Assembly: GCF_000428525.1 (NCBI RefSeq)
Contig: NZ_AUAC01000002.1
Span: 1,054,001-1,118,000, forward strand
Length of the DNA: 64,000 nt
Direction: 5' to 3'
From: Hellea balneolensis DSM 19091
Lineage (GTDB): Bacteria; Pseudomonadota; Alphaproteobacteria; Caulobacterales; Maricaulaceae
The notes beneath the pieces are model-generated. The model made no database searches. It was not told the DNA's origin and worked only from the letters and a program-made list of their open reading frames with translations. This document shows positions 19,724-62,710 of the stretch, in pieces. The first letter of the stretch is position 1; every line of letters starts with the position of its first letter. The translations under genes and the position numbers were made by a program.

Positions 19724-19731
19724 ATCTATCT

Positions 19732-20988: not shown

Positions 20989-21184
20989 GTTGTTTCCTTT
21001 CTTAACATGTTTGCAAGTGAGTGGCAAAACCGTTATTAGCCTGCTACCCGCTTGCGGGTTGATGAGGGGCTGTGTCTTGCGTCGAAACAGTGACGCAGCC
21101 TCTCGCTTTTCAAATTACCTCACCATTGAGATAACCTGTTTATCAGCACAGTCTGTGCTAATTCTGTTATACTTATTGCGTTTC

Positions 21185-21559: not shown

Positions 21560-21715
21560 GTTCGTCTCCTAACGTTCTCAAATAAAGTATGAGATAGATG
21601 ATATTTGTTCTTGTTATGTTCTTTTATAAGGATTATATTCCTATTGTCAACATGAATTTGAAAAAACTTATTCACAGTCTCTCCGGATGTGAGGGCAAAG
21701 ATAAAGGAGTATATA

Positions 21716-21928
21716 ATGAGCGAGATTTACGAGGCGGTATATTGGTATATTTGGAACAGCTATTCTGAACATTATAGCTTTGCATATGATTTCCCCAATT
21801 TCTTTTGTGAGTTGAGCGTTAACCATATCCAATCAATCGTGAAGAGAATTCTCCAGTTAGGGGAGTTATTTTTTATTAATACTATAGATAGCGTTTATCT
21901 TATCGCCTTACTCTATTTACGAGCATAG
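21716..21928 (+). CDS. Small hydrophobic protein ahead of the exporter gene
   Basis: 70 residues from the ATG at 21716, which has AAAGGAG 5-6 bp upstream; an earlier in-frame ATG at 21689 lacks one. It is rich in aromatic residues (YEAVYWYIWNSYSEHYSF) and ends in a hydrophobic helix (FINTIDSVYLIALLYLRA). It lies 9 bp before the ABC exporter gene, so translation is likely coupled. No family recognised; accessory or immunity role possible. Confidence 0.55.
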   Translation: MSEIYEAVYWYIWNSYSEHYSFAYDFPNFFCELSVNHIQSIVKRILQLGELFFINTIDSVYLIALLYLRA

Positions 21929-21937
21929 GGTAATCTG

Positions 21938-24245: not shown

Positions 24246-24378
24246 TGGTGCGGCTGAGACGCTAAGGTGTTTGTTTCCTTATGTCCTTTTACATAAGACA
24301 AATATCTATATAAATCAATACAATAGTTGTTTGTTACGTCTAATTTCAAGAGGAATTTGTACTCACTTTTGTACACAC
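24246..24378. repeat. Internal attachment site with integrase arm sites (left end of element B)
   Basis: TGGTGCGGCTGAGA (24246-24259) copies the tRNA-Leu 3' end and is followed by AAATATCTATATAAATCAAT (from about 24301) and the arm pair TGTACTCAC (24358-24366) / TGTACACAC (24370-24378), with a TTT spacer. The block is nearly identical to that at 18012 over more than 60 bp of scattered identity. Confidence 0.75.
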
Positions 24379-24398
24379 ATTGTAGAGACGGAAAGTCC

Positions 24399-27910: not shown

Positions 27911-28145
27911 AATCCACCCAAATGCTTACCTTTATCAAAACTTCTTCTCTCCTTGATTGGCTTCGATATTATCATCTAAATCCATCAGAAGCTTCTTTGC
28001 CATGACTTCCACTGCCAATTGATCGACTGTTGGAAATAGATCTAACATTGCAAGAAAAGTCAACTAACTGTAATGCAAACGAGCGGAGGCTATTTTACTA
28101 AACTGATTTTCTCTCATTACATCTGTGAATAAGAAGGTGAATACA

Positions 28146-32721: not shown

Positions 32722-35700
32722 TCAATAACGGGTTTCCCCAATGGTCACTTTCAAGAGCCTTGTAGCGGTGCCCGAGAGTTCAGCACTTAGCTCTTTTCCC
32801 GTGCCATCAATTTTTTTGATCTCAGCCAATCTAACATTACCAATTTGAACATTCTTCTGCCCCCCCAAACCAATTAGATATATCTTCGCCAAGCTATAAC
32901 GAGCTATATTATCTAAAATATCGACGTTTGAATTATCATATTCCACGTCACGGATAAGTAATGCTTCTTCAAGCCAGTTTGCTGCTTGATCATAATCACC
33001 ATTCCTATACATGTTATTGAGTATCAGTTGGGATAAAATAACCCTTGCCGTTTTGCCTCTATTATCATTCAATAAAGCAATTTTATCCAATATCGCAGTT
33101 CCCTTAGAAATTGTTGAAGAGTCCTTTATATATATTTTTGCAGCACGAAGTCCTGCGTAATAGTTAGCGCTGCTCCTTCTAGAATCCATCACAATTGACT
33201 GATATGCTTTTACATACCACTCAGCAGCTATTAGCTCATCGTTCCGATTTTTAGCATTTCCTAGCAGATAGTTTCCAATATTCACTTGAGCATCGGAGTC
33301 ATTTTGGTTTGCAGCTTTAATCCACCAATCATACGCAGAACCTTCAACATTCAAACTTGCTGGAACTCTGTTGGAGTTAACGGAAGTTCCTAACTTATTT
33401 TGAGCTTTTGGGTCACCATTTCTTGCCGCTAATACTATCGACTCTATCTTTTGCTCACCGAAACTATTCCAGAAATTGTCTATGCCATAGAGAGAAACGT
33501 ATTTTAAATTAATTTCATCAATATATTCAAAATCATAAAACCAGTTAGCATATTCAAATGCCGCTGCTACATTTTGTTCATACCCTTTTTCAAGTCCGAC
33601 CTGAACAGCATCGTGTGTCTTGCTTTCCAATTCACCTCGATATTTTCCATTTCTATATTCTTTGATGTAAGATTTTACTACGGTTAGATCGACCTTACTG
33701 GTTTTTCGCTCCAAGCTACGAACAGCACTTTCGAAAAGTTCGCGCTCTAATGCCATGGAACTTGCTAATTTGGATTTACCCAAATATCTGCCCGACTTGA
33801 AATATCTCTCATATTCTTTGTAAGAAAAACTTGTATCCCGTTGCACCGCTAAAGCAAATGCTCGATCATCCAGAGACCCGAAATGAGTGCAATACGAAAA
33901 TCTATCGACATGTGCAGACAGCGACGCCATATTTTCAATATTTTTTATCCGATCAAAATCTTCATCATCTAACAATATGACGCGTTTTGCTTTTGCTTCG
34001 CTGACAAATTGGCCACTTGGATGATTAGCCAAATACTTATCCATACTTCTTACTGTGTTCGCGTTTTGAGCTTTAAGCCAATCAGCATTATCCTTCTCAA
34101 TTTGAGCTTGAGCTTTTGCTCTATTTGCAGTTTCGGTAAGTTCAAGAATTTTTACTTCAACTTCGGAACGAAAACTTCCGTCAGGATTATTACCTAGGTA
34201 GTGTTTGTATGAAGCCAAAGTATTCTCTGATGCAGCACTCTCGTAAGCCTCCTTATCTTTACGGTCAGTCTCTTCCGAATTTAGCCTCAAAATTTCAGTT
34301 TTCACATATTCAGCATGTTCGGGGAAAAACTCTTCTAAGCTTTCAAACCCTGCGATGGTGTTCAGTGAAATAGCTTGCTGTTTAGCCGTCTGAAATTCAC
34401 GTTTTTGAATGTTATCTCGAACTAATGGAGTCGTTAAAATACCTGTTAAAACTATTGCACTAAAAATGTATGCAAGGTTCTTTTTAGATCGCTTACTAAC
34501 TTTTGCTACCTGTTTATCATTAGTGAATTCTGCCGCCTCAGTTTCATCCGAGACTTTCTTATCATTACCTTCAAGAAGATGGTTTTCAGAAGAATGTTCG
34601 TTTGTTTCTTGAGCCTTCGTGATTGGGGTTTCCTCAAACTCAGATTTGAGCTGATCCTTGGCCTCCTCAGACCTTTTCTTCTCTGCAAGCTCTAACAGAT
34701 GCTTTGCATCTAAATCTCCGTGCTCAGCGGCCTTAGAATACCACTCCCACGCCGCTTCGGGATTCTCAATAACGCCATGCCCATCCTTGTATTGATGTCC
34801 AATTGCCATCATCGCACGGGAATGGCTTCTTGTCGCGGCCTTAAGAAAAGCATTATGCCCTTCGACAAATTTCTTATTCGCACATGATAAAAGGCCTATT
34901 TGATAGTAAGCTTCTGGAGAGTTTTCGTTAGTTGGAAATTCGAAAATAAACTCTTGAAGCAGATCAACTGAAGGACTCCGAAGAATTTTCTTAAATTCAG
35001 CGTTAGCGTCTTTCTTAGGTTTTTTGTTCAAAGCCACTTTTGGCTTTTCAGTCTCTTTTATTTGCCTCTCGACAACTGGAGTGGCTACAATGTTCAGATA
35101 GTGACTCTTTCGTTCCTTAAACTCACTTTCAGAAAACTCATAAATCGAAGATTCCAGAATAAAAGCAAATTGCCCACCCTTATTGCCATCAATATCTAGT
35201 TTTCCTTCACGTGGTCGCTGAAAACTCTGGTGTTTCGACGACATATCTTTCTTAATATTCCAAGCAAAACCGCTTGAAGATAAATGTGATTGTCGATTTC
35301 GTGTCAAGAAATTAAGTGCGGGGTATGCAAAGACAGAATGATTTTGGTATGCGCCCCAATCAATAACTGTTCTCATGTCAGCGTCGCTGGTGAGCGCTCG
35401 GCGGCTTGCAAAACGCATTTCTCCTTTAGCCGCCTCTACAGTTGAGTCGTCAGCCCCTAAATTATTTTTATTTCGTTCAAAAATGCCCGCAGAAAAACAA
35501 CTATCTGAAACAACCAAGATATGACGCGCACGTATTGGTTCAAGGTGCGAAACAAAGTCTGTGTAATTAATCCATGTTTCTCCACAATACTCAGGAGGAG
35601 CATTTTTTGGAATGAAGTAGCTTAACCTTTTCAAATTTCCATTTATATCATTTTCTTCCTCTTCGGGCTCATAGACATCTTTCTCTCCATGCCCTGCCAA

Positions 35701-36027
35701 CCATATCAGCAATGAGTCATTTGGCCCAAGCTTCCTAGTTGATTTTCTTAATGGAGAGAAATTTCGCAAAGCCGAAAAAATAGCGCCTTTAGTTGCTTCA
35801 GCCTCTGGAATTAAAACTATGTTTTCTTCTTTAAAACCATAGCGTAACTCCATGAGGGCGCACAGTGCCGCCACGTCATTATTGGCAGATTTTAGATCAT
35901 TCCATCCGACATGGTCGTATAGATTTATGCCTACCGCCAATAAATGAAAATCACCGACTTCCACTTCATTTTGCCTTATATCACCTGAGTCAGTAGCGGC
36001 ACGAGGATTAAGGTTATCTTTTTTCAC
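32722..36027 (-). CDS. Caspase-like (peptidase C14) protein with Sel1 repeats and a membrane helix
   Basis: 1101 residues, GTG start at 36027 with GGGGAGGA upstream. The N-terminal caspase domain (~25-280) has the His of LIWLAGHGEKD and the Cys of LVVSDSCFSAG. Sel1/TPR-like repeats follow at ~370-460 (NPEAAWEWYSKAAEHGDLDAK), then one membrane helix (LAYIFSAIVLTGILTTPLV, ~525). Next come two copies of a Y/D-K-x-YL-x-N-xP-x-G-x-F-xSE motif (SYKHYLGNNPDGSFRSE, SMDKYLANHPSGQFVSE) and more Sel1-like repeats at the end. Bacterial caspases execute or trigger cell suicide in several defence systems. It stands next to the TIR cluster but beyond an attachment site. Confidence 0.85.
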   Translation of the reverse strand: MKKDNLNPRAATDSGDIRQNEVEVGDFHLLAVGINLYDHVGWNDLKSANNDVAALCALMELRYGFKEENIVLIPEAEATKGAIFSALRNFSPLRKSTRKLGPNDSLLIWLAGHGEKDVYEPEEEENDINGNLKRLSYFIPKNAPPEYCGETWINYTDFVSHLEPIRARHILVVSDSCFSAGIFERNKNNLGADDSTVEAAKGEMRFASRRALTSDADMRTVIDWGAYQNHSVFAYPALNFLTRNRQSHLSSSGFAWNIKKDMSSKHQSFQRPREGKLDIDGNKGGQFAFILESSIYEFSESEFKERKSHYLNIVATPVVERQIKETEKPKVALNKKPKKDANAEFKKILRSPSVDLLQEFIFEFPTNENSPEAYYQIGLLSCANKKFVEGHNAFLKAATRSHSRAMMAIGHQYKDGHGVIENPEAAWEWYSKAAEHGDLDAKHLLELAEKKRSEEAKDQLKSEFEETPITKAQETNEHSSENHLLEGNDKKVSDETEAAEFTNDKQVAKVSKRSKKNLAYIFSAIVLTGILTTPLVRDNIQKREFQTAKQQAISLNTIAGFESLEEFFPEHAEYVKTEILRLNSEETDRKDKEAYESAASENTLASYKHYLGNNPDGSFRSEVEVKILELTETANRAKAQAQIEKDNADWLKAQNANTVRSMDKYLANHPSGQFVSEAKAKRVILLDDEDFDRIKNIENMASLSAHVDRFSYCTHFGSLDDRAFALAVQRDTSFSYKEYERYFKSGRYLGKSKLASSMALERELFESAVRSLERKTSKVDLTVVKSYIKEYRNGKYRGELESKTHDAVQVGLEKGYEQNVAAAFEYANWFYDFEYIDEINLKYVSLYGIDNFWNSFGEQKIESIVLAARNGDPKAQNKLGTSVNSNRVPASLNVEGSAYDWWIKAANQNDSDAQVNIGNYLLGNAKNRNDELIAAEWYVKAYQSIVMDSRRSSANYYAGLRAAKIYIKDSSTISKGTAILDKIALLNDNRGKTARVILSQLILNNMYRNGDYDQAANWLEEALLIRDVEYDNSNVDILDNIARYSLAKIYLIGLGGQKNVQIGNVRLAEIKKIDGTGKELSAELSGTATRLLKVTIGETRY

Positions 36028-42746: not shown

Positions 42747-44471
42747 ATGAAACTTGCTATCAGTTTATTACGCGTGTCATCAGATAGGCAATATCAAGAA
42801 GGACAAGGAATCAATGTCCAAAAACGGACAATTGACTATTTTGCTGAGCGCAATGAGTACGCCATCGTCCGTTATTTTGTAGAGCACTATAGCGGTCGGA
42901 AAGCTGACCGAGAAGTGCTGGAAGAGATCATAGAGTACCTCGCTAAAAATGAGGGTGAAATTTCTGCTCTCATTGTTAGCCAGATTGACCGCTTTACACG
43001 AGCAGGCGCAGAGGTTTACCTCTATCTGCAAAAGCAACTCCGGTCTCTTGGCGTTGAACTTGTTGATGCATCCGGTATCATTCAACAGCCAGTAAACACG
43101 CTGGCTCATACGGGGTTTTCATATGAGTGGTCTACCCGCTCCCCAAGCCGTCTCACTGAAACCATTATGGCAGAACAGGCTAATGCAGAAGCCACTCAAA
43201 TTCTGACACGCTGTATTGGCGGGCAAATCGAAAGCGCGCAAAAGGGTTTTCAATACAAATCCGCTGACTACGGCTTTCAAAATGAAAAGACTGTCACATC
43301 TGATGGGCGCAAACGTACCATCATGGTCAAAGATGAAACCGAAGCTGTTCACATCGAGATGATGTATACCCTTCGGGCTGAAGGGCATCTCTCAGATACA
43401 ACAATTTGTGAAAGACTTAATAATGCGGGGTATGAGAGCCGTCCGTTTAGGCGGTATGATAAGGTCACGAGGGAAGTCGTTGGAGAAGGCGGGCGTGTTA
43501 AACTCACACCTAAGCAACTTCAGAAATATATCAGACGCCCCGTCTATTGCGGCATTCGTATTGGAAAGTGGACAAAGCGAAAAGCCATCTGGTTGCCACG
43601 AGAATGTCCGCGTCTGGTATCCATTGATGTTTTCAATCGAGCCAATCGTGGGCGCATAAAAATCACTGAGGTCGATAATGATCTCGTGATTGAAGAGAAT
43701 GTTGGAAAACAAATCAGCACAGCCGAGACAGGTGATTTTCTATTGAGACATGTAATCTGCTGCCCTGAATGCAATAAACCTTTTAAAGCTTCAAAAAGCC
43801 GTGGAAAATCTGGGGGGCTATTTGGGTATTACCATTGCAGCCGCGATCATAAATACTTCGGGGTCAACGCCAAGGTGTTCGAAGATACGGTTGCTAAGAC
43901 TGTTCGAAACATAAGGTTCAAGAAGAAATTATTGGGCGTATTGAAAGAAGTTGTTCGTGATGTTTGGATCAAACATCACAAGGCTGATGAAATCGTCAAA
44001 CAGCAAACAAAAGCGCATATTGAAGCCCTTCGAAAACGTCAAACTCAACTGGTAGGGAAAATATCACGCTGTGCATCTGATATTGTCCAAACAGCCCTTG
44101 AGCAAGAGTACGAAGAGCTGGAAGACAATATAAATTCAGCCGTTAAACAGCTCTCTGAATTTGTGAATAATGATGTGCAAATTGAGACCTATTTTCAGAA
44201 GATCAAAGAGGCGGTGGAACACCCTGAAAAATGGCTAATGAACCCCCAGTCAAAGGCGTCTACGGTCAAAGCATGGGGCTTTCTTTTCGAAAAACCTCCC
44301 ACTTGGTCAGAAATGGAAAGTCGAACACCCCGATTAGCGCTCCCCTTCCGGTTTTTAACCGGATCGGAGACTAAGAAAGGACGGTTGGTGGAGGTGGCGT
44401 CCCTAGAGTCGAACACCCTAATTCGGCACGTTAAGGCCTTTAGTAAGTTTAATCAGACTGAATTTCAGTAA
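42747..44471 (+). CDS. Large serine recombinase
   Basis: 574 residues. The catalytic domain has the nucleophile Ser11 in LLRVSSDRQ and SQIDRFTRAGAEVY; the recombinase domain runs through ~170-320 (LNNAGYESRPFRRYD...RRPVYCGIRIG). A zinc ribbon follows with CCPECNKPF and a later YHCSRDHKYF, then a coiled coil at ~410-480. Such proteins integrate or excise DNA at short core sites. The last ~30 codons lie inside a 44-bp sequence that recurs after the next cargo gene, so cargo has been added at its 3' end. Confidence 0.88.
   Translation: MKLAISLLRVSSDRQYQEGQGINVQKRTIDYFAERNEYAIVRYFVEHYSGRKADREVLEEIIEYLAKNEGEISALIVSQIDRFTRAGAEVYLYLQKQLRSLGVELVDASGIIQQPVNTLAHTGFSYEWSTRSPSRLTETIMAEQANAEATQILTRCIGGQIESAQKGFQYKSADYGFQNEKTVTSDGRKRTIMVKDETEAVHIEMMYTLRAEGHLSDTTICERLNNAGYESRPFRRYDKVTREVVGEGGRVKLTPKQLQKYIRRPVYCGIRIGKWTKRKAIWLPRECPRLVSIDVFNRANRGRIKITEVDNDLVIEENVGKQISTAETGDFLLRHVICCPECNKPFKASKSRGKSGGLFGYYHCSRDHKYFGVNAKVFEDTVAKTVRNIRFKKKLLGVLKEVVRDVWIKHHKADEIVKQQTKAHIEALRKRQTQLVGKISRCASDIVQTALEQEYEELEDNINSAVKQLSEFVNNDVQIETYFQKIKEAVEHPEKWLMNPQSKASTVKAWGFLFEKPPTWSEMESRTPRLALPFRFLTGSETKKGRLVEVASLESNTLIRHVKAFSKFNQTEFQ
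44386..44429. repeat. Cargo-boundary direct repeat, copy 1 (inside the recombinase gene 3' end)
   Basis: A 44-bp sequence, starting TGGTGGAGGTGGCGTCCCTA, is found again at 46307-46350 with one mismatch. Twelve bases of it (AGTCGAACACCC) also occur at 44319-44330. The reverse strand ends in CGCCACCTCCACCA, which resembles the 3' end of a tmRNA or tRNA. Confidence 0.75.
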
Positions 44472-46230
44472 TAATTTCAATTAGCCCTGCAAAAGAAGAA
44501 AAATTACTTATGTCAGTATTTGACGCCATAGCCTGTGCAAATTCTCCCTTTTTATTTTTATTAAACTCCTCAAAGTGAGTCTCCGTTCCATCAACATTTT
44601 TGGTTATTTTAACGGTGAAGCCTTCAAAAACACTTTCGGGAAACGCATTTTCAATACCTCGAGTGACAATTTTATTTGATTTATTGTCTGGAATTCTGAA
44701 TCCAAAAGTTGTGTCAGTATTAACAAATGACTTTTTGTAATCACAGTCCCAGACAAAAATAACTTTCTGTTCGTGAGGTAACTCTGAAAGAAAATCAAAC
44801 AAGGCACGCATTTTATTACAACATGTGATGGATTCTAAGCCATCAAGCACTTGAACGTTAGAAATGCCACTTAAGTTTAGCACTTGCTGAATTATGTTTG
44901 TATTATGCCCTTCAGTAATAATGCATGTGTCATGACCTGACATCTCCTTAAATAATGAGATACCTTGGTCTAAAGTAATGTAGCCTTCTGAAATTAAACT
45001 CATCGCTTGAGCCCGGCTGTGTTTGCTAATCTTAGTAGCCACATTTCCTTTATTGACGACGTAAATGGTTTCTTCAGAAGCTAAGGCTATTGTAGAAGGA
45101 GAATGGGTGGCGAGAATTACCTCGATTCCACGTGCAACAAAAACAGACTCTAAAGTACCCAGTAGTGCTTTCGTCATTGATGGGTGAAGCGAAGCGTCAA
45201 TCTCATCAAGTAGCAATACTTTTGGTAATTCAAAGTTATCCGCAGATTGATAGATCGAGAGTGCTAAAGCTAATAATGTCTGCTCTCCAGAAGAAAGCGC
45301 CTCAAACGCTCGCGCTTGACCATGAACTTTGTCTAAAAGCTGCGGTTGAAAGATATAACCTTGGTAGCTTTCCAAAGTTAAAACATCAGTTTGAGGGTTC
45401 GTGATTTCAAAGTTGAAAACATCCTGTCCTCCACCTTGTTGATGAATTCCTTCCATTATTTCATTTATAACGACCCATGGTTGGAGGTTTTCTTCCTCAA
45501 ATTTTTGATAAAAACTTTCAATTGGCAAACTGACACCGCCTGCACCCCATTGCCTATGAGCCCATAAAAATTGTTTCACTTTGTATTTTGTAAAAACAAC
45601 GCTAAGAGACGCTGATAGGTAATCATTACCGGATGAGTGCGGAGAGAAGTGTTCTCTAAATTCACTTTCAACAATTAAGTGAATTGGTTTCTGACACTTC
45701 TTGAGGGCCCTAGAGATTGACTGATGATAGCCATTTTTCTTGAAATTTAGATTCTCAAATAAATGATGACGTACTAAAGATTCATATTGCTTCTTTCTCG
45801 AAAGAAACTCTTCATCCTCACCTTCATATTTATGCCAAAAGCTATGCTCTAGAAATCCATCATCGTCAGGGTAAGCTGTCTTAATATCTGTAGCTCCAAA
45901 AACTTTGGAGAAATATTGATGCATCGTCCTCAACCAATTCACTTTTGGATTTCCACTAACACCAGTTAAAATTTGCCAACCAGCAAGGGTTTGAGCGGCT
46001 AACTGTTGCGCATTTAACGCCTTTGGCGACTTCATACGGAAGTTTAGCAAATTGTAGTACTTTACTTGTGCAGGGGTTGAACCCTGAACGGTGATAGAGC
46101 CATTATCTATCGCTTGAAGTAAATGTGTTTTCCCAGCACCGTTCAGCCCGGTCATAACTGTTAACGTCGGTAATTCAGTATCAGCAAGTTGCTTGATTGA
46201 AATATGTTCAGTTTGAAAAGTAAGCTTCAT
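44449..46230 (-). CDS. OLD-like AAA ATPase with C-terminal TOPRIM-type region
   Basis: 593 residues. ABC-type ATPase: Walker A GLNGAGKTHLL (~30), signature LSSGEQTLLAL, Walker B VLLLDEIDASLH and the His switch ATHSPSTIAL. After ~430 the sequence has IITEGHNTNIIQQVL and FVWDCDYKKS, which look like the Glu and D-x-D of a TOPRIM nuclease fold. This domain order is that of OLD-family nucleases and some single-gene defence proteins. The gene stands alone between two copies of the 44-bp repeat, opposite in direction to the recombinase, and its 3' end overlaps the recombinase stop by 23 bp. Confidence 0.8.
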   Translation of the reverse strand: MKLTFQTEHISIKQLADTELPTLTVMTGLNGAGKTHLLQAIDNGSITVQGSTPAQVKYYNLLNFRMKSPKALNAQQLAAQTLAGWQILTGVSGNPKVNWLRTMHQYFSKVFGATDIKTAYPDDDGFLEHSFWHKYEGEDEEFLSRKKQYESLVRHHLFENLNFKKNGYHQSISRALKKCQKPIHLIVESEFREHFSPHSSGNDYLSASLSVVFTKYKVKQFLWAHRQWGAGGVSLPIESFYQKFEEENLQPWVVINEIMEGIHQQGGGQDVFNFEITNPQTDVLTLESYQGYIFQPQLLDKVHGQARAFEALSSGEQTLLALALSIYQSADNFELPKVLLLDEIDASLHPSMTKALLGTLESVFVARGIEVILATHSPSTIALASEETIYVVNKGNVATKISKHSRAQAMSLISEGYITLDQGISLFKEMSGHDTCIITEGHNTNIIQQVLNLSGISNVQVLDGLESITCCNKMRALFDFLSELPHEQKVIFVWDCDYKKSFVNTDTTFGFRIPDNKSNKIVTRGIENAFPESVFEGFTVKITKNVDGTETHFEEFNKNKKGEFAQAMASNTDISNFSSFAGLIEIITEIQSD

Positions 46231-46463: not shown

Positions 46464-48170
46464 ATGAAATTACGAAATCTCAAAATAGCAAACTACCGAG
46501 GTGTAAAATCTCTAAATTGGTCCATCCCGGATATTCCTCAGATATGTTTGATCGGTTCAGGAGATTCGAACAAATCAACAATACTAGAAGCAATTAGTTT
46601 AGTTTTTTCGCCATATTGGAATCCTAAAATAACTGACAACGATTTTCACAATTGTGATCCTTCTCAACCAATTCAGATTTTCGCTACCATAGGAAATTTA
46701 CCCGAAGAGTTTATCAGTAGGTTTGATTTTGGTGATAACCTTAGTGGATGGAACATCGCCACTAATGAATACTCTACTGAACCTAAAGATGATGAAGGTT
46801 GGGAACTGGCACTTAAGGTGAGGTTCTCTGTAGGCGCGGACTTAGAGCCTAAATGGAGTGTTGTACGAGAAGATCATGATGAAGGACGTGATTTCAAAAC
46901 TGCTGACAGAACAAAAGCTAATGTAAGTCTAGTCGGACATGATAGAGATATCCATCTTACATGGAGCCGTTATTCAGTTTTAGACCGAATTACTGAGAAG
47001 CAGGTTGTTACATCGCCTTTAGCAATAGCAGGACGAGCAGCAAAGGAAGCACTGTGTGGACAGCGAGACCAAATTGCTAACCTAGACGAAGCTGCAGGTG
47101 TTGCAGAAGCTGCAGCACGCGAACTGGGCATACAAGTAAATACTGGCTACCAAGCTCATTTAGATCTCGCAGCAATTCAGCTTCGACAGGGAGGACTCGG
47201 CCTCCATGATGGCAATGTCCCTATTCATCAACTCGGACTAGGTTCTAAAAGAATGTTGATCGGAAGCTTGCAAGGAAAAGTTAAAGAGGGGCATCATATA
47301 ACTCTGTTTGATGAGATTGAAGTTGGACTGGAGCCAAATAGAATTGCGAGACTTTTAAAAACACTGGCGGATGACGCTGTGGGTCAATTTATAATGACAA
47401 CCCATTCTCCCGTTGTCTTGCGCGAGCTCGGAGTCGAAAACTTATTTGTAGTTCACGCGAGCACTGCAGAGACTAAAATAATTCCTGCAGCTCAAGAGCA
47501 TATTAAAAATAACCTGCAGGGAAATATTAGGCTTGCTGCTGAAGCGTTCTTGGCTTCAAAAGTAATAGTTTGTGAAGGTGCCACAGAGGTTGGCTTCTTA
47601 AGAGGGTTGGATCAATCTTGGGTCAAAGAAAAAGAGTTAAGTTGCTCCTATCATGGTGTAACATTTTTAGACGCTAGAGGGGCATCTAAAATCGAAGGAA
47701 TCGTCAAAGATTTAAATCTGATGCAATACAATTCTTGTGTTTTTGCTGATGCAGATGATGAGAGTAATTTTTCAAAAGCAACTAGAAACACCTTATCTAC
47801 TAGCGGAACAAAAGTCATAGTTTGGGCGGATTCGTTCTGTCTTGAACAACGTGTCTTTAACGACCTTCCTTGGGAGGGAGTGGTGGAATCTCTACGGCTT
47901 GCACAGACCTTGGGTAATAATGCAATTGTTGCCAATGTTGGATCTGCAATTGGTAGGGTAATTGATACAAATATCGAAAGTTGGGAAGATGCTCAAGACT
48001 TAAGAAATGCTATCGGAAAGGCTGCGAAATTATCAGAATGGTTTAAACGTACAGATAGAGGAGAAGCTTGGGCAATATTGATTTTTCCATATGTAAAGTC
48101 AGAGGAAATGGTCAATAGTGATTTAAGTGTTAAAGTCAGTCAATTACGTCACTGGATATCAGATGAATGA
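46464..48170 (+). CDS. gajA: GajA-like OLD-family nuclease/ATPase (Gabija)
   Basis: 568 residues. N-terminal ATPase: the Walker A position reads IGSGDSNKSTILEAI, the signature region GLGSKRMLIGSL, Walker B ITLFDEIEVGLEPN and MTTHSPVVL. The C-terminal TOPRIM half has VIVCEGATEVGFLRGL (Glu) and CVFADADDESN (D-x-D). The Walker A carries a Ser-Asp-Asn in place of the usual G-x-G. It is translationally coupled (8-bp overlap) to a UvrD-like helicase gene, the pairing that defines Gabija, an anti-phage system in which GajA cuts DNA when nucleotides run low. Confidence 0.78.
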   Translation: MKLRNLKIANYRGVKSLNWSIPDIPQICLIGSGDSNKSTILEAISLVFSPYWNPKITDNDFHNCDPSQPIQIFATIGNLPEEFISRFDFGDNLSGWNIATNEYSTEPKDDEGWELALKVRFSVGADLEPKWSVVREDHDEGRDFKTADRTKANVSLVGHDRDIHLTWSRYSVLDRITEKQVVTSPLAIAGRAAKEALCGQRDQIANLDEAAGVAEAAARELGIQVNTGYQAHLDLAAIQLRQGGLGLHDGNVPIHQLGLGSKRMLIGSLQGKVKEGHHITLFDEIEVGLEPNRIARLLKTLADDAVGQFIMTTHSPVVLRELGVENLFVVHASTAETKIIPAAQEHIKNNLQGNIRLAAEAFLASKVIVCEGATEVGFLRGLDQSWVKEKELSCSYHGVTFLDARGASKIEGIVKDLNLMQYNSCVFADADDESNFSKATRNTLSTSGTKVIVWADSFCLEQRVFNDLPWEGVVESLRLAQTLGNNAIVANVGSAIGRVIDTNIESWEDAQDLRNAIGKAAKLSEWFKRTDRGEAWAILIFPYVKSEEMVNSDLSVKVSQLRHWISDE

Positions 48171-49590
48171 TGTTGCTAGCCGCATAGCAAATTTTGAAGG
48201 CTGTGGATACGTTACTGCTCCAGCAGGTTACGGGAAAACCCATGCTATATGTGAAGCGGTTCTTCATTCTGAGGGACGACAACTAATTTTAACCCACACT
48301 TATGCGGGCGTAAATGCAATAACAACCAGTCTTAAAAAACTCAAAGTTCCAAGTAAGAACTATTATGTAAACACGCTTGCAGGCTGGGCTTTAAAACTTT
48401 GTTTATCGTACCCAAACACATCCGGGTTTACAAATCCCCAACCTCAGACAAACGCTGAGTGGTTAGAGTTATACAATTCGACTAGGTTACTTTTAAATAA
48501 GACATTTATTCGTAAAATTTTATCAGCCTCATACGCTGGTTTACTAGTCGATGAGTATCAAGACTGCCAAACCCTTCAACATTCGATAGTCCTAGACTTA
48601 TCCGAATACCTCCCCACACGGGTTTTAGGTGATCCATTACAAGGAATTTTTGAGTTTCAAGGCCAGCAGATCGTTGATTGGCAAAATGATGTGGAAAATA
48701 ATTTAGAGGCAATTGGCGTGCTCAATACTCCACACAGGTGGCTTAAAGATGACAACCCTGCGTTAGCAACTTGGCTTCAGTCTGTTAGAGAGAATATATT
48801 ACAAAACACCCCGATACCTCTGAATAACGCACCTGAATGCGTTGACGTAATTGCTACTACACCTGATCAATTGGGCCGAATACAGCAAAACACTTGTCGA
48901 TATTTTGCATTACCACGAGGTGATACAGCTGTAGCAATACATGCTGGTCATTTCATAAATGGTTGCCATTCTTTGGCTAAAAACGTGAGTGGAAAATTTC
49001 ACTCAATTGAACAGGTGGAAGGGAAAGCAATATTTGAATTTATATCTGAATTAGAATCAAAAGAGTCGTCATCAGAAAAATTACTAAGCACTATAGTTTT
49101 GTTAAAAAAGGTAATGACTGCAGTGAACGGTAACCTTCCAGCAGGAGCAAAACGAGGAGAGCACAGTACCATAAGAGCTAATACTCCGAATGTTCAACTG
49201 GTTTCATCGTTAAACAATTTTATTGAAACTCCAACGAGCGCTAATCTAGATGATATTTTTACAGAAATAAGATCTCTTGATGAGCCAAAGGTCTACCGCC
49301 GAGACCTTCTTAACCGCCTTCAGGCAATTTTGAAAAAGCATAAAGTTAGCGAGTTAAGTTTGATTGATTGTGCTCATGAGTTTCATAGAGAGTTTAGGCA
49401 TTATGGTCGCCCAACTAGACATCCAAAATGCGTTAGCACCACTTTACTAGTGAAAGGGCAGCAATTTGATCATGCAATTGTATTGGATGCCGCAGCTCTC
49501 TCTAAAAAAGAGCTTTATGTAGCACTTACAAGGGGATCAAAAACTCTAAAGATCATAACAACAGAAAACTCATTAAACCCGCAAGATTAA
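48163..49590 (+). CDS. gajB: GajB-like UvrD/Rep-family helicase (Gabija)
   Basis: 475 residues from the ATG at 48163, which overlaps the gajA stop; an upstream in-frame start at 48127 would overlap gajA by 44 bp. Walker A is APAGYGKTHAI, helicase motif II VDEYQDCQTLQ, and motif III-like TRVLGDPLQGIFEFQG. The last motif LYVALTRGSKTLKII matches helicase motif VI. These are superfamily 1A DNA helicase features; in Gabija, GajB senses DNA ends from GajA and uses up NTPs. Confidence 0.8.
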   Translation: MNDVASRIANFEGCGYVTAPAGYGKTHAICEAVLHSEGRQLILTHTYAGVNAITTSLKKLKVPSKNYYVNTLAGWALKLCLSYPNTSGFTNPQPQTNAEWLELYNSTRLLLNKTFIRKILSASYAGLLVDEYQDCQTLQHSIVLDLSEYLPTRVLGDPLQGIFEFQGQQIVDWQNDVENNLEAIGVLNTPHRWLKDDNPALATWLQSVRENILQNTPIPLNNAPECVDVIATTPDQLGRIQQNTCRYFALPRGDTAVAIHAGHFINGCHSLAKNVSGKFHSIEQVEGKAIFEFISELESKESSSEKLLSTIVLLKKVMTAVNGNLPAGAKRGEHSTIRANTPNVQLVSSLNNFIETPTSANLDDIFTEIRSLDEPKVYRRDLLNRLQAILKKHKVSELSLIDCAHEFHREFRHYGRPTRHPKCVSTTLLVKGQQFDHAIVLDAAALSKKELYVALTRGSKTLKIITTENSLNPQD

Positions 49591-56344: not shown

Positions 56345-57433
56345 TCAGAAATCAACTCTGTAAGAAAATGTTGATAACGTAATTTTATCAAGCTCAGTCA
56401 AAATCACATTACCAAATGAGTTTAAAAATTCATTTGATTCTTCCATTGACCATTTCTTTTTATTTGGATCGACTCCAAATTTATCTTGGAAGTCCCAGCC
56501 TAATGGATATTCGATAACATGAAAATGAAATCGTCCGCGAAGCGTAGAAATTTTAAATGTCGGCCCTTTCCTTGGAGTTAACTCGATCTCGACCTCATCA
56601 GTGACAATATTGTTGAAAGGATACAGTGCATAATGATCTTCCGAATTTTTTGAAATTTCCGCTACTTTTTGATCATAGCTTTCAAATAAGAAAACATTTT
56701 TCTTTTCGGAATTTATCCTAACGTAATCCAATACGAATAAATTATCAGGCTTAAGTGTCGGCCACATATCAGCGGGGTAGAAATATTCAGGCATGGGTTC
56801 TGCGGAATCATATGCGGCTCTTTTTGTGCTCTTAGCAACCAATTGCGCCTCTAAGGTCGTATGTTTGTGATTGTGTTCTTCGAACAAAGATTGAATAGCG
56901 TGAATACTCGGTATCGAGGCTCTAATTTTCAAACCTGCTCTAAGAGCTTTATTATAATTGGCAGAGAAATTCTTGGTAACTAAATCCTTCCAAGAAATGA
57001 CCCTTCCCCAGTCTGAACCATAAAGCTTCGCAAAATAATAATGAAAATGCCGCCCTTCTACTTCGGAAATTTTTCGTTCTTTATCATATATATTCCCGAT
57101 TCTATTCTTACCTTTTTTATTTGAGTCCGTTCTTTTAGATGTATGCAACGTATTCGTGTATGGGCGAGGAGTTGGAGACTGTTCAACGTATATCAACTTT
57201 GCAATATCCTCTCTTCGTGTAACGGACTGACCATATGCGCCCGAATAGAAAAGCGTGACTAGCATAGACCGAAAATCAATTGACTGTTTGTGTGATGCAT
57301 CATGGGGCTTCAACAAAAGTTTCAGCTCTTCAGTTTTTTTCTTATCAAGAGGGTCACAAGAGTTTTTAAGTCTCTTAAGCTCGTCGTTCATTTCTTCAAT
57401 TTTCATTAAATCAATCAGGTCTGGCTTACTCAT
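56345..57433 (-). CDS. Unrecognised 362-residue protein downstream of the vWA gene
   Basis: From the ATG at 57433 (AGGAG 7 bp upstream); the ORF extends to 57460 without better support. N-terminal coiled-coil (IEEMNDELKRLKNSCDPLDKK), then a mixed region with a HFHYYFAKLYGSDWGRVISWKD segment. It is on the same strand as the vWA gene, with a palindrome between, so it may belong with the phospho-signalling set or be separate cargo. Confidence 0.55.
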   Translation of the reverse strand: MSKPDLIDLMKIEEMNDELKRLKNSCDPLDKKKTEELKLLLKPHDASHKQSIDFRSMLVTLFYSGAYGQSVTRREDIAKLIYVEQSPTPRPYTNTLHTSKRTDSNKKGKNRIGNIYDKERKISEVEGRHFHYYFAKLYGSDWGRVISWKDLVTKNFSANYNKALRAGLKIRASIPSIHAIQSLFEEHNHKHTTLEAQLVAKSTKRAAYDSAEPMPEYFYPADMWPTLKPDNLFVLDYVRINSEKKNVFLFESYDQKVAEISKNSEDHYALYPFNNIVTDEVEIELTPRKGPTFKISTLRGRFHFHVIEYPLGWDFQDKFGVDPNKKKWSMEESNEFLNSFGNVILTELDKITLSTFSYRVDF

Positions 57434-57488
57434 TTCATGCTCCTGTGTTCCCGTGTTCAAGTTAAGTTATTTCGAAAGGCATTAGAAA

Positions 57489-57514
57489 GCTACCGACGGT
57501 TAACCGTCGGTAGC
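57489..57514. repeat. 26-bp palindrome between the vWA gene and its neighbour
   Basis: A perfect palindrome centred on TTAA, with arms GCTACCGACGG and its complement. It contains the GACGG/CCGTC pair seen elsewhere. It sits 26 bp after the vWA stop codon on the minus strand; a T-rich tail follows only weakly, so terminator or operator are both possible. Confidence 0.6.
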
Positions 57515-57539
57515 CCTAAATTTTTGATACAAACAATAA

Positions 57540-58271
57540 TTATCGGGCTGAACTTAAATGTTGGCTCAATGTTTGACCAACATCGGCGAGGAACTTGCGC
57601 AATTCGCCCCCGTTTGTACCAATAACATGAACACGGCCATCCGACGCGATTTTCGAAAGCGTACCAGAGTTGGCATCTGCGCCATAAGCAATGGCCGTTA
57701 CATCAGCGTATTCTTGCAATAATTGAATGTTCTGACTGGATACAGCAGAATGCCCATCTGACAAGAACAGTACTTGGGGACGCATATATTGCCATCCATC
57801 CGTATTAGGAAGACTGGCAAACTCTTGTACCGTTTTAATCGTCTCCGTAAGGGCCTTATCGAAATTTGTGCCTCCACCAACAGTCAAAGTGGGGGCGGTA
57901 AGTGTCAGGAAAGACTCCGCAAAAATTAGGCGCTTTGCTCCAGAGCTAAACTGAATGAGGCTCCCCATGAAACCATCTTTGTTTTGAGGAGCGGCAAGTT
58001 CTCCATACAAAGCGTTTAGTCCAATATTTAATTCGCCAATTTTATGGCCTGACATTGATGATGAAGTATCCGCTACGAAAACAACATGTTGTTTTGTATT
58101 GGATGAAATCCCAGTGGCTATTTTCAGAGGCTTACTGACTTTCAAATCAGGGAAGTCAGAGCCAAGCGCTTCTGTTTCTAAAGGGGCCGTTTGGGTGTGC
58201 TCATTACCATAATTGGAAATAGGCTGTGCAAGAGGGGCCGTAGCCTGTGTGGTATTAAATATAGATGTCAT
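57540..58271 (-). CDS. von Willebrand A domain protein (TerY-like)
   Basis: 243 residues from the ATG at 58271 (GGAG upstream). A complete MIDAS metal site: DTSSSM (D-x-S-x-S), the Thr in GGGTNFDKAL, and the Asp of FLSDGHS. No signal peptide. Known biology: TerY-type vWA proteins pair with a PP2C phosphatase and a kinase (TerY-P triad) in phosphorylation-controlled stress/defence modules. The phosphatase and kinase genes lie on the other side, divergent from it. Confidence 0.85.
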   Translation of the reverse strand: MTSIFNTTQATAPLAQPISNYGNEHTQTAPLETEALGSDFPDLKVSKPLKIATGISSNTKQHVVFVADTSSSMSGHKIGELNIGLNALYGELAAPQNKDGFMGSLIQFSSGAKRLIFAESFLTLTAPTLTVGGGTNFDKALTETIKTVQEFASLPNTDGWQYMRPQVLFLSDGHSAVSSQNIQLLQEYADVTAIAYGADANSGTLSKIASDGRVHVIGTNGGELRKFLADVGQTLSQHLSSAR

Positions 58272-58429
58272 GATTTTCTCCATTGGTTTGTGATGACATC
58301 TTTTCCTTATTCTCGATCTAGTGATCTCCCTAGGAACGGTTCACCGTCGTATTTCGACGGTAGTCCGTCCAATGACCTGAAGTATAATCTGTGAATTTTG
58401 AAGCGTGTGAACACGAAAGGACACACGCT
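58272..58429. promoter_or_regulatory. Divergent promoter region between vWA and phosphatase genes
   Basis: A 158-bp region that must hold both promoters. It contains the GACGG/CCGTC type inverted repeats at 58334-58370 (GGAACGGTTCACCGTCG and CGACGGTAGTCCGTCC). No -35/-10 pair is clear enough to name. Confidence 0.5.
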
Positions 58430-59725
58430 ATGACTCTTAAAAAATATAAAATTTCAAAATCTCACATTGAGGCTGTAAAGCGTTCAGGCTTTGACTGCCA
58501 TGATGTCAATAAACGTTATCCCGTCCAAAATACCGAACTGGATAAAATCCTCGCCAGCCAAAACCGTGCGCTTGATCCGAGAGCGCGCCTCTTAATCAAG
58601 GGCCGCGAGATGTTTCGGGGATTCAAAGACCGCGCACTTATGCTGGCCTCAGGACTGGCACTAACTCTCGCTATACCGCCAGAAGCTTGGGCCAATACCT
58701 CCCCTCACGAAACAGAGGGAAAAATTGCGCCCCTCTATGCCTTGTTGGATGTCGCGGCATGGTCATGGGAACTGGCTCTTCTTAGCGGTCTTTTAAGCAC
58801 CTCTCTCGCCTCTCTCTACCTTCAAGCAAGGATGTTCAAAATGATCCTACCATCATACCCGAAACCTAAGAAAAGCCGCCGCCTTAACTCTATAGGTCGT
58901 AAAGTGCCTAAAGGTAATGCAGAGCAAGTCACACCAACACCGAAACTCAAATGGCGCGTAAACGGCTCATCTCGCATGGGTAAAGTCCGTACAGAAAACC
59001 AAGACGCCTATGATTTTTGGCGCGTCAGTGAAGATGAAGTCTTTATGGTAGTTTGCGACGGCGCGGGAGGTGTTGATGGCGGGAAAGAAGCCGCTGAAAC
59101 CGCCGTTCAAAATATCATAACGATATTACAGGCTATATATCCTGAAGGCGGTGATCCGACAGACGCTCTCGAAATTGCTATTGAAGACGCCAGAGTCTTC
59201 GCAAAGGAACATGAGCTTGCTGGCATTACTACAGCCATCATTGCCCATGTGAAAGGCGACAAGCTTCACTATGCCACTTTGGGCGACGGTACACTTTCGG
59301 CGGTATGGCCTGACGGTATGGTCAATCATATCCAGACCCCACATAATATTCAGGGACAGCCTAGTAATATTATTGCGGCCTATATCGGCCAAGGTTGCGC
59401 TGTTCCTGCGCGCACAGGATCGATACGCTTGGAAAAAGGCACAACGCTTATGCTTATGAGTGATGTAGCCAGCGATTTACTGCCTTATGAAGAGTTCGCT
59501 GCGCACCGTGCAGATTATGCCCAAATATTGAAAACGAAGACAGATGTCCCTGTTGCCGATAAACTGTTGGAGCAAATCGAAGTGGCGCGTGACCCTGACA
59601 CCAACGCATATCTTCATCACGACAATATGACACTAATATTGGCTCATTTTCATGAAGTCTTAGAACCTGAAACTACGGCTGTAGGCACAATGCCTGTTTC
59701 ATCCATGGAGGTGCGTCATGGGTAA
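58430..59725 (+). CDS. PP2C-type serine/threonine phosphatase with membrane helices
   Basis: 431 residues from the ATG at 58430, with AAAGGAC upstream. An N-terminal part with two hydrophobic stretches (about 65-90 and 108-132) anchors it in the membrane. The catalytic domain has the PP2C metal motifs: RTENQDAYDF, VVCDGAGGVDGG, ATLGDGT and HHDNMTLI. PP2C reverses kinase action in triad systems. It overlaps the kinase gene by 8 bp. Confidence 0.85.
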   Translation: MTLKKYKISKSHIEAVKRSGFDCHDVNKRYPVQNTELDKILASQNRALDPRARLLIKGREMFRGFKDRALMLASGLALTLAIPPEAWANTSPHETEGKIAPLYALLDVAAWSWELALLSGLLSTSLASLYLQARMFKMILPSYPKPKKSRRLNSIGRKVPKGNAEQVTPTPKLKWRVNGSSRMGKVRTENQDAYDFWRVSEDEVFMVVCDGAGGVDGGKEAAETAVQNIITILQAIYPEGGDPTDALEIAIEDARVFAKEHELAGITTAIIAHVKGDKLHYATLGDGTLSAVWPDGMVNHIQTPHNIQGQPSNIIAAYIGQGCAVPARTGSIRLEKGTTLMLMSDVASDLLPYEEFAAHRADYAQILKTKTDVPVADKLLEQIEVARDPDTNAYLHHDNMTLILAHFHEVLEPETTAVGTMPVSSMEVRHG

Positions 59726-60959
59726 GCAAGTCACTATTGACGGGATACGTGCCGTCATCACTGATCCAAAACTTGGGCAAGGCGGACAAGGCTTTGCTCA
59801 GAAAGCGAAACTCTATAGCAATTCTGCTATAGAGCTGGTGATAAAGTCGCAAGCTAAAGCGGGTAAGAACGATATTCGAGCCCGTAAGCTAGTCGAGTTA
59901 AATCTGGCATCTCATAGTCCCTATCTAGCGGGGCCAATTGCTACGGCTGAGAAGAGCGGCCAGATAGTGAATATTGCTCCGTTCGCAAAAGGTCAGGACG
60001 TTGAGTCAGATCGACCGCGCAGCTTTCCTGAACTGGTTGAACTCTGCCATCACATAACCTGCCAATGGGCTATATTAGAGGAACAGGGGATTGCTCATGG
60101 CGATATTGCTCCCTCCAACGTTATTGTTTCGGATGATGGTTCGGCCAGCCTAATTGATTTTGATAACTTTGCTTCATTGGAAGCTAAAGTTCCTAAAGCA
60201 ACTATGGCAGGGCAATCCATGATGACGGCACCAGAGATTAGGCTGCGCAGTCATCCACCCACAATTGAGAGTGATCGTTTTGCCTATGCGGTACTCTTCA
60301 ACATGATCTTATTGCGCCGTCACCCTAGCGACGGCTTGGCAGCAAACCCGAAAGAGCTCGCCAAGGTCATGACGACAGGACAATGGCCTGAGCGTGTGCG
60401 GCCCATACAAACTGGTGAGACGCCAGTAGAGGCAATGGGAGATATTCTACCTGCTTTGTTTGATGCAGCCTTTGATATTGATCCCATCAACCGTCCTACC
60501 GCTCAGCAATGGCGTCATGGGTTTAGACAAAGCCTACAGACGATCTACATCCATAATTGTGGACAGGCATTTATCAGCGGGAACAAGCAAACTCGATGTC
60601 CCTTCTGTCAGGACTACATCCAAATACCTAATCAGGCATCGTCTAATGAAACAATGATATTCAAAATTCGTATTCCGAGTCTCGGAACGAAATATAGCTT
60701 TGGCTTAAAGGACGGGCAGTCCATTTATCTTGGACGAAATAATTTAGGACGGGGTGCAGCATCAGTATCGAACCGTCATTTATCCGTGTCACGGATGAAC
60801 CAGAAACTCTATCTGCGACACCTGGGGCAACATCCGTCCGCTCTTTATCGTGATGGTCAGTGGTATAATTTGAAGGACGTTTGGCTAAAGCCTTATGAGT
60901 ACCAAAAAGATGGTGTGTTAATTCGGTTGGCTAACCTAGATATTCATCTTGGGCTATAA
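59718..60959 (+). CDS. Protein kinase with zinc ribbon and FHA domain
   Basis: 413 residues with a strong GGAGGTG site upstream. The kinase domain has the ATP-binding Lys (VIK, Lys43), catalytic loop HGDIAPSN (Asp129, Asn134), metal loop DFD and the APE motif (TAPEIRLRS). A zinc-ribbon-like segment (NCGQAFISGNKQTRCPFC) follows at ~275, then a C-terminal FHA domain (IYLGRNNLGRG, SNRHLSVSR) that reads phosphothreonine. This order matches kinases of TerY-P triads. It overlaps the next gene by one base (TAATG). Confidence 0.86.
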   Translation: MGKQVTIDGIRAVITDPKLGQGGQGFAQKAKLYSNSAIELVIKSQAKAGKNDIRARKLVELNLASHSPYLAGPIATAEKSGQIVNIAPFAKGQDVESDRPRSFPELVELCHHITCQWAILEEQGIAHGDIAPSNVIVSDDGSASLIDFDNFASLEAKVPKATMAGQSMMTAPEIRLRSHPPTIESDRFAYAVLFNMILLRRHPSDGLAANPKELAKVMTTGQWPERVRPIQTGETPVEAMGDILPALFDAAFDIDPINRPTAQQWRHGFRQSLQTIYIHNCGQAFISGNKQTRCPFCQDYIQIPNQASSNETMIFKIRIPSLGTKYSFGLKDGQSIYLGRNNLGRGAASVSNRHLSVSRMNQKLYLRHLGQHPSALYRDGQWYNLKDVWLKPYEYQKDGVLIRLANLDIHLGL

Positions 60960-61171
60960 TGCCGCTCACATCCAACATTAGCCATAGTGTAAGCTATGTG
61001 ACGCCCCAAGAGTTTGAAGATATGGAAATGCTTTTGGGGCGTCTTTTACAAGGCGCTAACGCTAGAGAAACTCAGCTCTTGCTGCATATACATCAGCGAT
61101 TAATTAAGATCATAGCCGCGCAAACGACAAATCAATCCACAAGAGATCGCCTTATAAGCTTGGCCACTTAA
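60959..61171 (+). CDS. Small protein closing the kinase operon
   Basis: 70 residues, start overlapping the kinase stop. Mostly helical (FEDMEMLLGRLLQGANARET). It may modulate the kinase/phosphatase pair; no family recognised. Confidence 0.6.
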   Translation: MPLTSNISHSVSYVTPQEFEDMEMLLGRLLQGANARETQLLLHIHQRLIKIIAAQTTNQSTRDRLISLAT

Positions 61172-61174
61172 GTT

Positions 61175-62461
61175 CTATAAGGCGAACTCTGCAATTATGT
61201 CTCTCAGCATCTCTAACGGGGCTCCGTCGCCATAAGTTGGGCGGTTGAACTTATGCCCCATAAGCTGGCACTGGATGCGATCAATCACATTTCTTTGGGT
61301 CAATTGATCTTGGAACCAGTGTCGCAAAGAATAAAAGGATTGTTTCTCTTTTTTGAAAGTATTGTTCGCTCTAAAGTGTCTATTGATAATAGTCGTCGCA
61401 TACATGTTCTTTCCCAAACGTTTGCCCCAACCGCCTTGTTGTTTCAGTTCTTTAGCGGCATCGAGAGAAACCCCAAGCAGGGGAATACGTCTTTCCGAGT
61501 GAGGAGTTTTAAGAACACGAACGCTGTTTTGGCGAACATGAACATATGAAATTTCATGGTCGAGTACAAAATCTGCAAGCTCAAGACCAATGGCCTCAAT
61601 GGGCCTCATACCTGTGTTGATTAGAAGTTTTACCAACAATTGGAAATCAGTATGTAGCCCGTCAAGTTTCCCCTCTGCTAGAATTTTTTGCTCTATAGTT
61701 TCACTTGAAATTGGAGACCGACGTACCTTCACGTCTTTCTTCAATCGGACGCGATCAAATGGATTTTTTCCTTCATATCCATCAATGTCATAAATCACCC
61801 GAATTAACCGCCTGATTGAGTCTATCTCACGATTGGCAGTGCAACTTTTCAAACTATTTTCCTTTTTACGTTTCATCCACCAAGCCCGAAATTCAATCGC
61901 ATGAGTTCTCGTGATTTCGTAAAGTGCTACAGAACCAACAGCCTCTTCAAAGTGTCGAACCGATTTTAAATAGACATTTCTTTTGCAGCGTTTTTGATCT
62001 GGACTAAGACCTGTCCACTCATCTTCAACATGTTGCCAAAACTTTTCGAACGCCTGCCCCATTGAGAGTTTAGGTTTTTCAATCAAACCTAAGACAGCTT
62101 TTTCTTCATTTTGAGTGACTTGGCTGGATATTAAAAACCTTAAGCGGTTCAATAAATCAGCTTCTGATAACTGATTTACCTGAGCGGTACGAAAGCCGTG
62201 CGCTTGGTTAGTAGCAATAACGCCAGCGTATTGTTTAACATCAGATTGGCTTTTGAGTGATACACCTCTCGACTTTGCTGCCTCCCATTGTTTCTCCAAA
62301 TCTTGGGAGATTTGGGCGGCTTTAAGTTTTGCCTCTGAAACATTATTCGTTCTGAGCGAAAACGTGATGACAGAACGCGATTCCACATCTTCATATTGCT
62401 TGGGGCGGTTTCTATAATAATGCCACCTTTGACCACGCTTTTTAATATGACGGCCATGCAT
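61175..62461 (-). CDS. int: Tyrosine integrase of the tRNA-Leu elements
   Basis: 428 residues from the ATG at 62461 (AGAGGA upstream; a TTG at 62482 is also in frame). N-terminal arm-binding domain, core-binding domain, then the catalytic part: Arg in INTGMRPIEA, H-x-x-R in YSLRHWF (with the first residue Ser/Leu, second His), LMGHKFNRP and the nucleophile Tyr in PTYGDG. The start faces tRNA-Leu 160 bp away, and two arm-type repeats lie between. It probably cuts at the tRNA 3' end. The protein is similar in motif order to the broken copy at 16653. Confidence 0.9.
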   Translation of the reverse strand: MHGRHIKKRGQRWHYYRNRPKQYEDVESRSVITFSLRTNNVSEAKLKAAQISQDLEKQWEAAKSRGVSLKSQSDVKQYAGVIATNQAHGFRTAQVNQLSEADLLNRLRFLISSQVTQNEEKAVLGLIEKPKLSMGQAFEKFWQHVEDEWTGLSPDQKRCKRNVYLKSVRHFEEAVGSVALYEITRTHAIEFRAWWMKRKKENSLKSCTANREIDSIRRLIRVIYDIDGYEGKNPFDRVRLKKDVKVRRSPISSETIEQKILAEGKLDGLHTDFQLLVKLLINTGMRPIEAIGLELADFVLDHEISYVHVRQNSVRVLKTPHSERRIPLLGVSLDAAKELKQQGGWGKRLGKNMYATTIINRHFRANNTFKKEKQSFYSLRHWFQDQLTQRNVIDRIQCQLMGHKFNRPTYGDGAPLEMLRDIIAEFAL

Positions 62462-62515
62462 TGCGCTTGATCCTCTCAGCAATGCGAGTTTGGCTTACGG
62501 TTTGTACCCGAAAAC

Positions 62516-62623: not shown

Positions 62624-62710
62624 TGGTGCGGCTGAGAAGACTCGAACTTCCACCCGTGTTACCGGACAGCGACCTCAACGCTGCGCGTCTACCAATTCCG
62701 CCACAGCCGC
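62624..62710 (-). tRNA. tRNA-Leu (anticodon GAG)
   Basis: 87 nt on the minus strand with CCA encoded. Acceptor stem GCGGCTG pairs with CAGCCGC before A-CCA; the anticodon arm is CAGCG-TTGAGGT-CGCTG (anticodon GAG), there is a long variable arm as in tRNA-Leu, and the T-loop is GTTCGAGTC. Its 3' end is the integration target repeated at 174, 18012 and 24246. The 7-bp acceptor stem is intact, so the tRNA stays functional after integration. Confidence 0.95.

Follow-up and report, generated by a model that had tools for sequence, protein, structure and literature searches.

The 64,000-nucleotide stretch of Hellea balneolensis DSM 19091 analysed in our study (contig NZ_AUAC01000002.1, positions 1,054,001 to 1,118,000; hereafter the window, to which all coordinates and strands refer) contains a set of five genes at 56345-61171 that raises the following question: do its vWA protein, PP2C phosphatase and Ser/Thr kinase form a TerY-P triad, and do they work alone or with the genes of 362 and 70 residues beside them? 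According to passages of PMC11090510, a TerY-P triad consists of a TerY vWA protein, a PP2C and a Ser/Thr kinase with a C-terminal zinc ribbon, and a preliminary description of this DNA had called the set TerY-P-like and treated it as such a triad. On the basis of alignments, profiles and motifs, we assign the vWA protein and the kinase to the TerY-P kind; the PP2C cannot be recognised as a TerY-P one and resembles Stp1-type phosphatases. The simplest reading of these comparisons is a TerY-P-like core with a phosphatase from another PP2C branch. We also identified one sister locus, in Robiginitomaculum sp. OFTM87 (G501, JAJFFN010000021.1).

The residues that define the metal ion-dependent adhesion site (MIDAS), the PP2C motifs and the kinase motifs are well established. 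Those of the MIDAS are also given in passages of PMC11090510. The three proteins match the Pfam families VWA (2.4e-7), PP2C_2 (9.7e-17) and Pkinase (8.8e-13), and the complete MIDAS noticed earlier is confirmed, with D-x-S-x-S, T and D all present in the window and kept in the sister locus. The PP2C carries all of its motifs (ENQD, DGAGG, GDG, SD and DN) and the kinase its catalytic residues (K43, D129, N134, D147 and APE); their genes overlap, as had been observed, by 8 nucleotides. The PP2C had furthermore been called membrane-anchored, and the anchor is doubtful: the usual Kyte-Doolittle threshold for a membrane segment is 1.6, both N-terminal stretches lie below it (best 19-residue means of 1.43 and 1.31), and the N-terminal part is absent from the sister PP2C.

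For comparison, we used 15 loci, each retrieved on account of a kinase or PADLOC match, in which the plasmid loci represent four of the six plasmid matches of the window kinase and three of the 40 listed matches of the ter-operon kinase. Thirteen of the 15 have a vWA gene, a middle gene and a kinase gene, the middle gene being a PP2C by annotation or profile where this was looked up; of the other two, L017 has a kinase that lacks a vWA neighbour within its stretch, and L018 has a generic kinase. With each of the 12 zinc-ribbon comparators, the alignment of the window kinase extends through residue 297 or beyond; it ends at residue 214 with the generic kinase and at residue 193 with the STK-OB kinase. 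In addition, [IV]DxD replaces DFG in all 13 TerY-P-type comparators, in the window and in the sister locus; the generic kinase has DFG. When a small database was searched, the window vWA protein matched 12 of the 13 comparators at E<4e-5, and TerY-C proteins are found among the 951 plasmid records that it matches. For the PP2C, the best E among 11 comparator PP2Cs is 0.029, and the NCBIfam Stp1 model gives 59.8 bits for the window protein and 70.3 for the sister protein; six comparator PP2Cs score at most 24 bits or are not matched at all. Classification as a TerY-P triad is consequently retained for the vWA protein and the kinase and withdrawn for the PP2C. The operon is also split: the triad genes lie on one strand in 13 of 13 comparator triads, unlike the divergent window triad, whose vWA gene and 362-residue gene (hereafter the partner gene) are on the minus strand and whose PP2C, kinase and 70-residue genes are on the plus strand. 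An Stp1-type phosphatase seems to have taken the place of the usual triad enzyme, and therefore the phosphatase may be exchangeable while the vWA protein and the kinase stay together.

All five open frames are intact, about where the preliminary description had placed them (Table 1), and the 362-residue frame does lie behind the vWA gene on the same strand. By eye, ATGs with good ribosome-binding sites open the PP2C (58430), vWA (58271) and partner (57433) genes; an alternative vWA ATG at 58283 would give 247 residues.

Table 1. Features of the gene set and of its integration site, in window coordinates.
Feature	Coordinates	Strand	Remarks
Partner, 362 aa, no family match, fast-diverging	56345..57433	-	proposed sensor or effector
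11-bp hairpin	57489..57514	-	between vWA stop and partner start
TerY-like vWA protein, 243 aa	57540..58271	-	complete MIDAS; ~60 residues precede the vWA domain
Divergent intergenic region	58272..58429	.	between vWA and PP2C genes
PP2C phosphatase, 431 aa, Stp1-like domain	58430..59725	+	N-terminal extension, two moderately hydrophobic stretches
Ser/Thr kinase, TerY-P type, 413 aa	59718..60959	+	zinc-ribbon-like part Cys281/294/297; possible degenerate FHA ~310-413
70-aa gene coupled to kinase stop (TAATG)	60959..61171	+	no relatives found
Tyrosine integrase of island	61175..62482	-	directly beside the 70-aa/kinase end of the set
tRNA-Leu(gag), integration site	62624..62710	-	3' end repeated within the window

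The kinase had been described as carrying a zinc ribbon plus an FHA domain. In the ribbon-like part, the three cysteines of Table 1 are clear (the last two as CPFC) and the fourth ligand is not; the best Pfam zinc-finger family reaches E 0.24. No FHA match was obtained in Pfam at E<=1 with the full-length kinase; a search with only the C-terminal piece lists FHA as the sole Pfam family, at E 0.12 and 13.3 bits, below the cut-off of 20.7. Our own FHA profile, derived from 12 of the 30 loci retrieved (another locus yielded no usable frame, and 17 frames that did not show the search motif were left out), scores 11.5 bits against the tail, and hhalign gives 14.6%, over a different part. Considering the FHA-like residues GR at 339 and S351-x-x-H354, a degenerate FHA domain is possible in this tail; the kinase domain itself stands, with a ribbon-like part of three clear cysteines, and the firm FHA assignment was not borne out. 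By sequence, the PDB returned ordinary kinases for the kinase and designed barrels only for its tail. A predicted kinase structure from a two-row alignment was set aside as a poor model, its mean predicted local distance difference test score (pLDDT) being 33.3.

The sister locus has a divergent layout likewise. Its identity with the window is 57% for the vWA protein, 57% for the PP2C domain, and 51% for the kinase (first 228 residues); for the core gene lipB it is 64%. Each of the two loci is flanked by tRNA-Leu(gag)/lipB on one side and by repeated tRNA 3' ends on the other. Such loci are rare in the genomes that we searched. At E<=1e-8, the kinase search found 5 of 289 genomes of the class, all of them distant except the own genome, and at E<=1e-10 it found 4 of 398 genomes of the order, with G501 (2.5e-64) as the single close one besides the own. 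The vWA pair-alignment search at E<=1e-25 found 2 of 137 genomes of the family (the own and G501) and 1 of 398 genomes of the phylum (the own). The genome contigs scanned for relatives contained one locus, the same as the G501 sister, and the viral contigs scanned contained none; the plasmid and phage scans gave neither a partner homologue nor a PP2C homologue. The set is real and uncommon, and its divergent layout is not described in the literature that we found, which covers few subscription papers.

Special attention was given to the partner gene, for which only chance-level matches were found in Pfam, PADLOC, NCBIfam and PHROGs. In the sister locus, its position is occupied by a 317-residue frame behind the vWA gene, on the same strand, with 22.8% identity over 302 positions. 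Global alignment with shuffling gave Z scores of 6.0 and 5.4 under two matrices, and local alignment with BLOSUM45 gave 5.5, and in none of these three settings did any of the 500 shuffles do as well; among 36 other proteins used as controls, the maximum was 3.1 in these three settings. The 317-residue protein is probably a diverged homologue of the partner. Searches with the two-row alignment of both proteins found the same two loci only (2 of 299 genomes), and the 362-residue protein alone found 1 of 61; by sequence in the PDB, the pair matched a coiled-coil chain alone (E 0.0033). Two further attempts at identification were discarded, namely a DUF4384-like reading of the C-terminal strands made by eye (hhalign 0%) and a predicted structure from the two-row alignment, which was a poor model (mean pLDDT 37.1). 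The preliminary description had held that absence of its two unknown genes from other triads would speak against it; a gene for a probable homologue fills the same place in the sister locus, and therefore conservation does not refute the proposal as far as the 362-residue gene is concerned. Divergence is uneven: identity is 22.8% in the partner, 51-57% in the triad and 64% in lipB, so that the partner appears to evolve much faster than the switch core, as is expected of a part that meets an invader. Because this contrast between a slow switch and its fast-changing neighbour comes from only two loci, of which one is broken, it is suggestive and does not amount to proof.

A hairpin separates the vWA and partner genes in both loci (z of -2.87 in the window and -3.12 in the sister), and it is possibly a partial terminator or an operator. 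Its core, ACGGTTAACCGT at 57496-57507, resembles ACGGTTCACCGT at 58336-58347 in the divergent region, and these are the sole two ACGGT-N(2-4)-ACCGT sites in the window. A shared operator is only a suggestion, because the divergent region of the sister locus has no such site.

At the other end of the set, the coupling of the 70-residue gene was corroborated, as its start lies inside the kinase stop. This frame is probably a gene because, of the six frames, it fits the codon usage of the island best: with 12 window genes as the reference, it scores 0.134 bits per codon (the others -0.135 or less; the kinase gene 0.147). Pfam, PADLOC, NCBIfam and PHROGs gave chance-level matches only and no similar protein.

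Starting from the domains, catalytic residues, layout, defence-like surroundings and uneven divergence observed in our study, we propose that the set is a stand-alone TerY-P-like phosphorylation switch with a putative role in phage (or plasmid) defence, a proposal for and against which we find the balance even. The kinase and the PP2C, both with their catalytic residues present, would oppose each other and so control whether one or more targets are phosphorylated, and the vWA protein, via the metal site of its MIDAS, would hold the partner or the target and tie it to the switch. The kinase tail, zinc-ribbon-like and perhaps FHA, might conceivably offer a docking site for nucleic acid or phosphothreonine. 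Judging by its place and fast divergence, the 362-residue partner would meet the invader, either as a sensor or as an effector controlled by phosphorylation. Infection would tip the kinase/phosphatase balance, for example by blocking of the PP2C as reported for the kinase-kinase-phosphatase (KKP) system, and the resulting phosphorylation would stop the growth of the phage or of the cell. A compact set with a fast-changing partner beside a slow core singles out the partner gene.

Passages of several papers are relevant to this proposal. TerY-P is active against T7-like phages (PMC7699616) and protects P. aeruginosa (PMC10889362), a TerY-P island is present in Helicobacter pylori (PMC4978471), and kinase-ribbon, PP2C and vWA genes are linked in actinobacterial conflict systems (PMC7159879). 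In KKP, a phage protein blocks the PP2C and thereby frees toxic kinases (PMC11341870), and the domain behind the TerY-P kinase may bind nucleic acid (the CoCoNuT paper, PMC11090510). In the available passages of the cited papers, we found no account of how the TerY-P triad senses phages or of its target. As a tentative possibility, the locus may represent a further TerY-P defence architecture, in which a constant core (vWA protein, Stp1-type PP2C and ribbon/FHA kinase) is combined with a cassette behind the vWA gene, where a hypervariable partner recognises or attacks the invader and the hairpin sets the dose. If this is true, a single kinase/phosphatase pair would be able to serve changing partners, with the vWA protein as its adaptor.

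It is important to consider the observations that weigh against a TerY-P-like defence switch. Within the set, the PADLOC models PDLC02222-02224 match the kinase only (30.2 bits, residues 105-193), and the PP2C and TerY models are unmatched. Inferring a defence role from the neighbours is guilt by association, and the known loci of this variant are two in total. BLASTP gives no link between the 362- and 317-residue proteins (E 0.13), and one of the four shuffling tests fails, local BLOSUM62 giving Z 1.4 with 50 of 500 shuffles as good (control maximum 4.0). Finally, the kinase gene of the sister locus breaks off at residue 228, upstream of the place for a 70-residue gene, and is then fused to the end of an HlyD-like gene resembling window 18191-19426; the sister copy is therefore probably dead or misassembled. 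The junction (L011 10330-10560) results from recombination between neighbouring islands or from misassembly.

The best surviving alternative, although we consider it fairly unlikely, is that the kinase/phosphatase pair serves the element, controlling excision, transfer or silencing of islands or acting in a toxin-antitoxin-like retention, like KKP with Pf prophages. The set directly adjoins the integrase, both loci occupy the tRNA-Leu/lipB site, with island ends of one kind, and KKP does both jobs according to passages of PMC11341870; however, KKP as described has no counterpart of the vWA and partner genes. Moreover, the sister island stays in place with its vWA, PP2C and partner frames open although its kinase is cut; therefore, the kinase loss did not cost the island its place. 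It is unlikely that the triad acts alone and that the 362- and 70-residue genes are unrelated island cargo. The hairpin splits the vWA gene from the partner gene, partner identity is just 22.8% and BLASTP alone shows no homology, but the partner keeps its place and strand in both loci with probable homology, and both loci contain the hairpin. We consider it improbable that the triad has nothing to do with phages and serves stress or metal (tellurite-like) signalling, as in ter operons: the plasmid matches of the vWA protein include TerY-C proteins and the kinase-ribbon-tail layout is common to ter-operon kinases, but a search of the whole genome for TerD (PF02342), the single ter family looked for, found none, defence genes surround the set and the ter-operon PP2C is dissimilar. 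The earlier statement that no other ter genes are near accordingly holds for TerD.

The set shares with the TerY-P triad a vWA protein with MIDAS, a kinase with [IV]DxD, a ribbon-like CPFC at the same place and the presence of a PP2C. Unlike the triad, it is arranged divergently, with a partner following the vWA gene; its PP2C is Stp1-like and has an N-terminal extension, its ribbon is degenerate, its kinase has an extra tail, and TerD is lacking. A TerY-P-like defence system with STK-OB was reportedly presented by Gao et al. in 2020. Such a system is also cited in passages of PMC11090510. It has in common with the window the three activities, the stand-alone arrangement, the defence setting and, in one comparator (L035), the GIAHGD catalytic loop, whereas the window has no OB-fold match and leaves the PADLOC PP2C and TerY models unmatched. 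All three PADLOC models (STK_OB, PP2C and TerY) match L035 at 255-624 bits, and by these matches the PADLOC TerY-P-type system is a different one from this locus. The L035 triad (6241-12648) belongs to an alphaproteobacterium and has two more same-strand genes upstream, one with a SIR2-like start by eye. Like the prophage KKP, the window has a PP2C and a Ser/Thr kinase on a mobile element, and FHA-kinases belong to the KKP survey in passages of PMC11341870; KKP, however, has two kinases, no vWA protein and no partner, whereas the window locus frames hold one kinase, with an uncertain FHA. The ter-operon kinase (P0002 and relatives, from Klebsiella, Salmonella and Conchiformibius plasmids) also combines kinase, ribbon and a tail of about 100 residues, but it sits with TerD genes, and homology between its tail and the window tail was not shown (hhalign 1.1%).

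The placement in a mobile element proposed earlier is supported by the tRNA-Leu, the integrase and the repeated tRNA 3' ends. The last 14 bases of tRNA-Leu(gag) have exact copies at 176, 18012 and 24246, and a copy of 13 of these bases, with two mismatches, lies at 32504; tandem islands lie at this tRNA within the window. The copies at 18012, 24246 and 32504 each follow about 140 conserved bases that contain GAGTACA repeats, an arrangement that occurs twice in G501 too. The same island encodes Gabija, with GajA at 46464-48170 (PADLOC 2.2e-177) and GajB at 48127-49590 (1.1e-144). Two TIR-WD40 genes (24327-26738 and 29712-32372), a TIR-pentapeptide gene (26750-27910) and a Tle1-like phospholipase gene (28125-29225) adjoin one another and are possibly uncharacterised defence genes. 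An AAA_21 ATPase with AbiLi/PtuA-like matches (44449-46230) adjoins a large serine recombinase (42747-44471). Beside an island end lies a 1101-residue Sel1/TPR protein (32722-36027) without a caspase match, whose N-terminal part is 40% identical to a G501 caspase-domain protein (Peptidase_C14 3.8e-8) at the same island end. By eye, a bacteriocin-like set at 18191-24178 comprises an HlyD-like protein, two small double-glycine-leader proteins and a peptidase-type ABC transporter.

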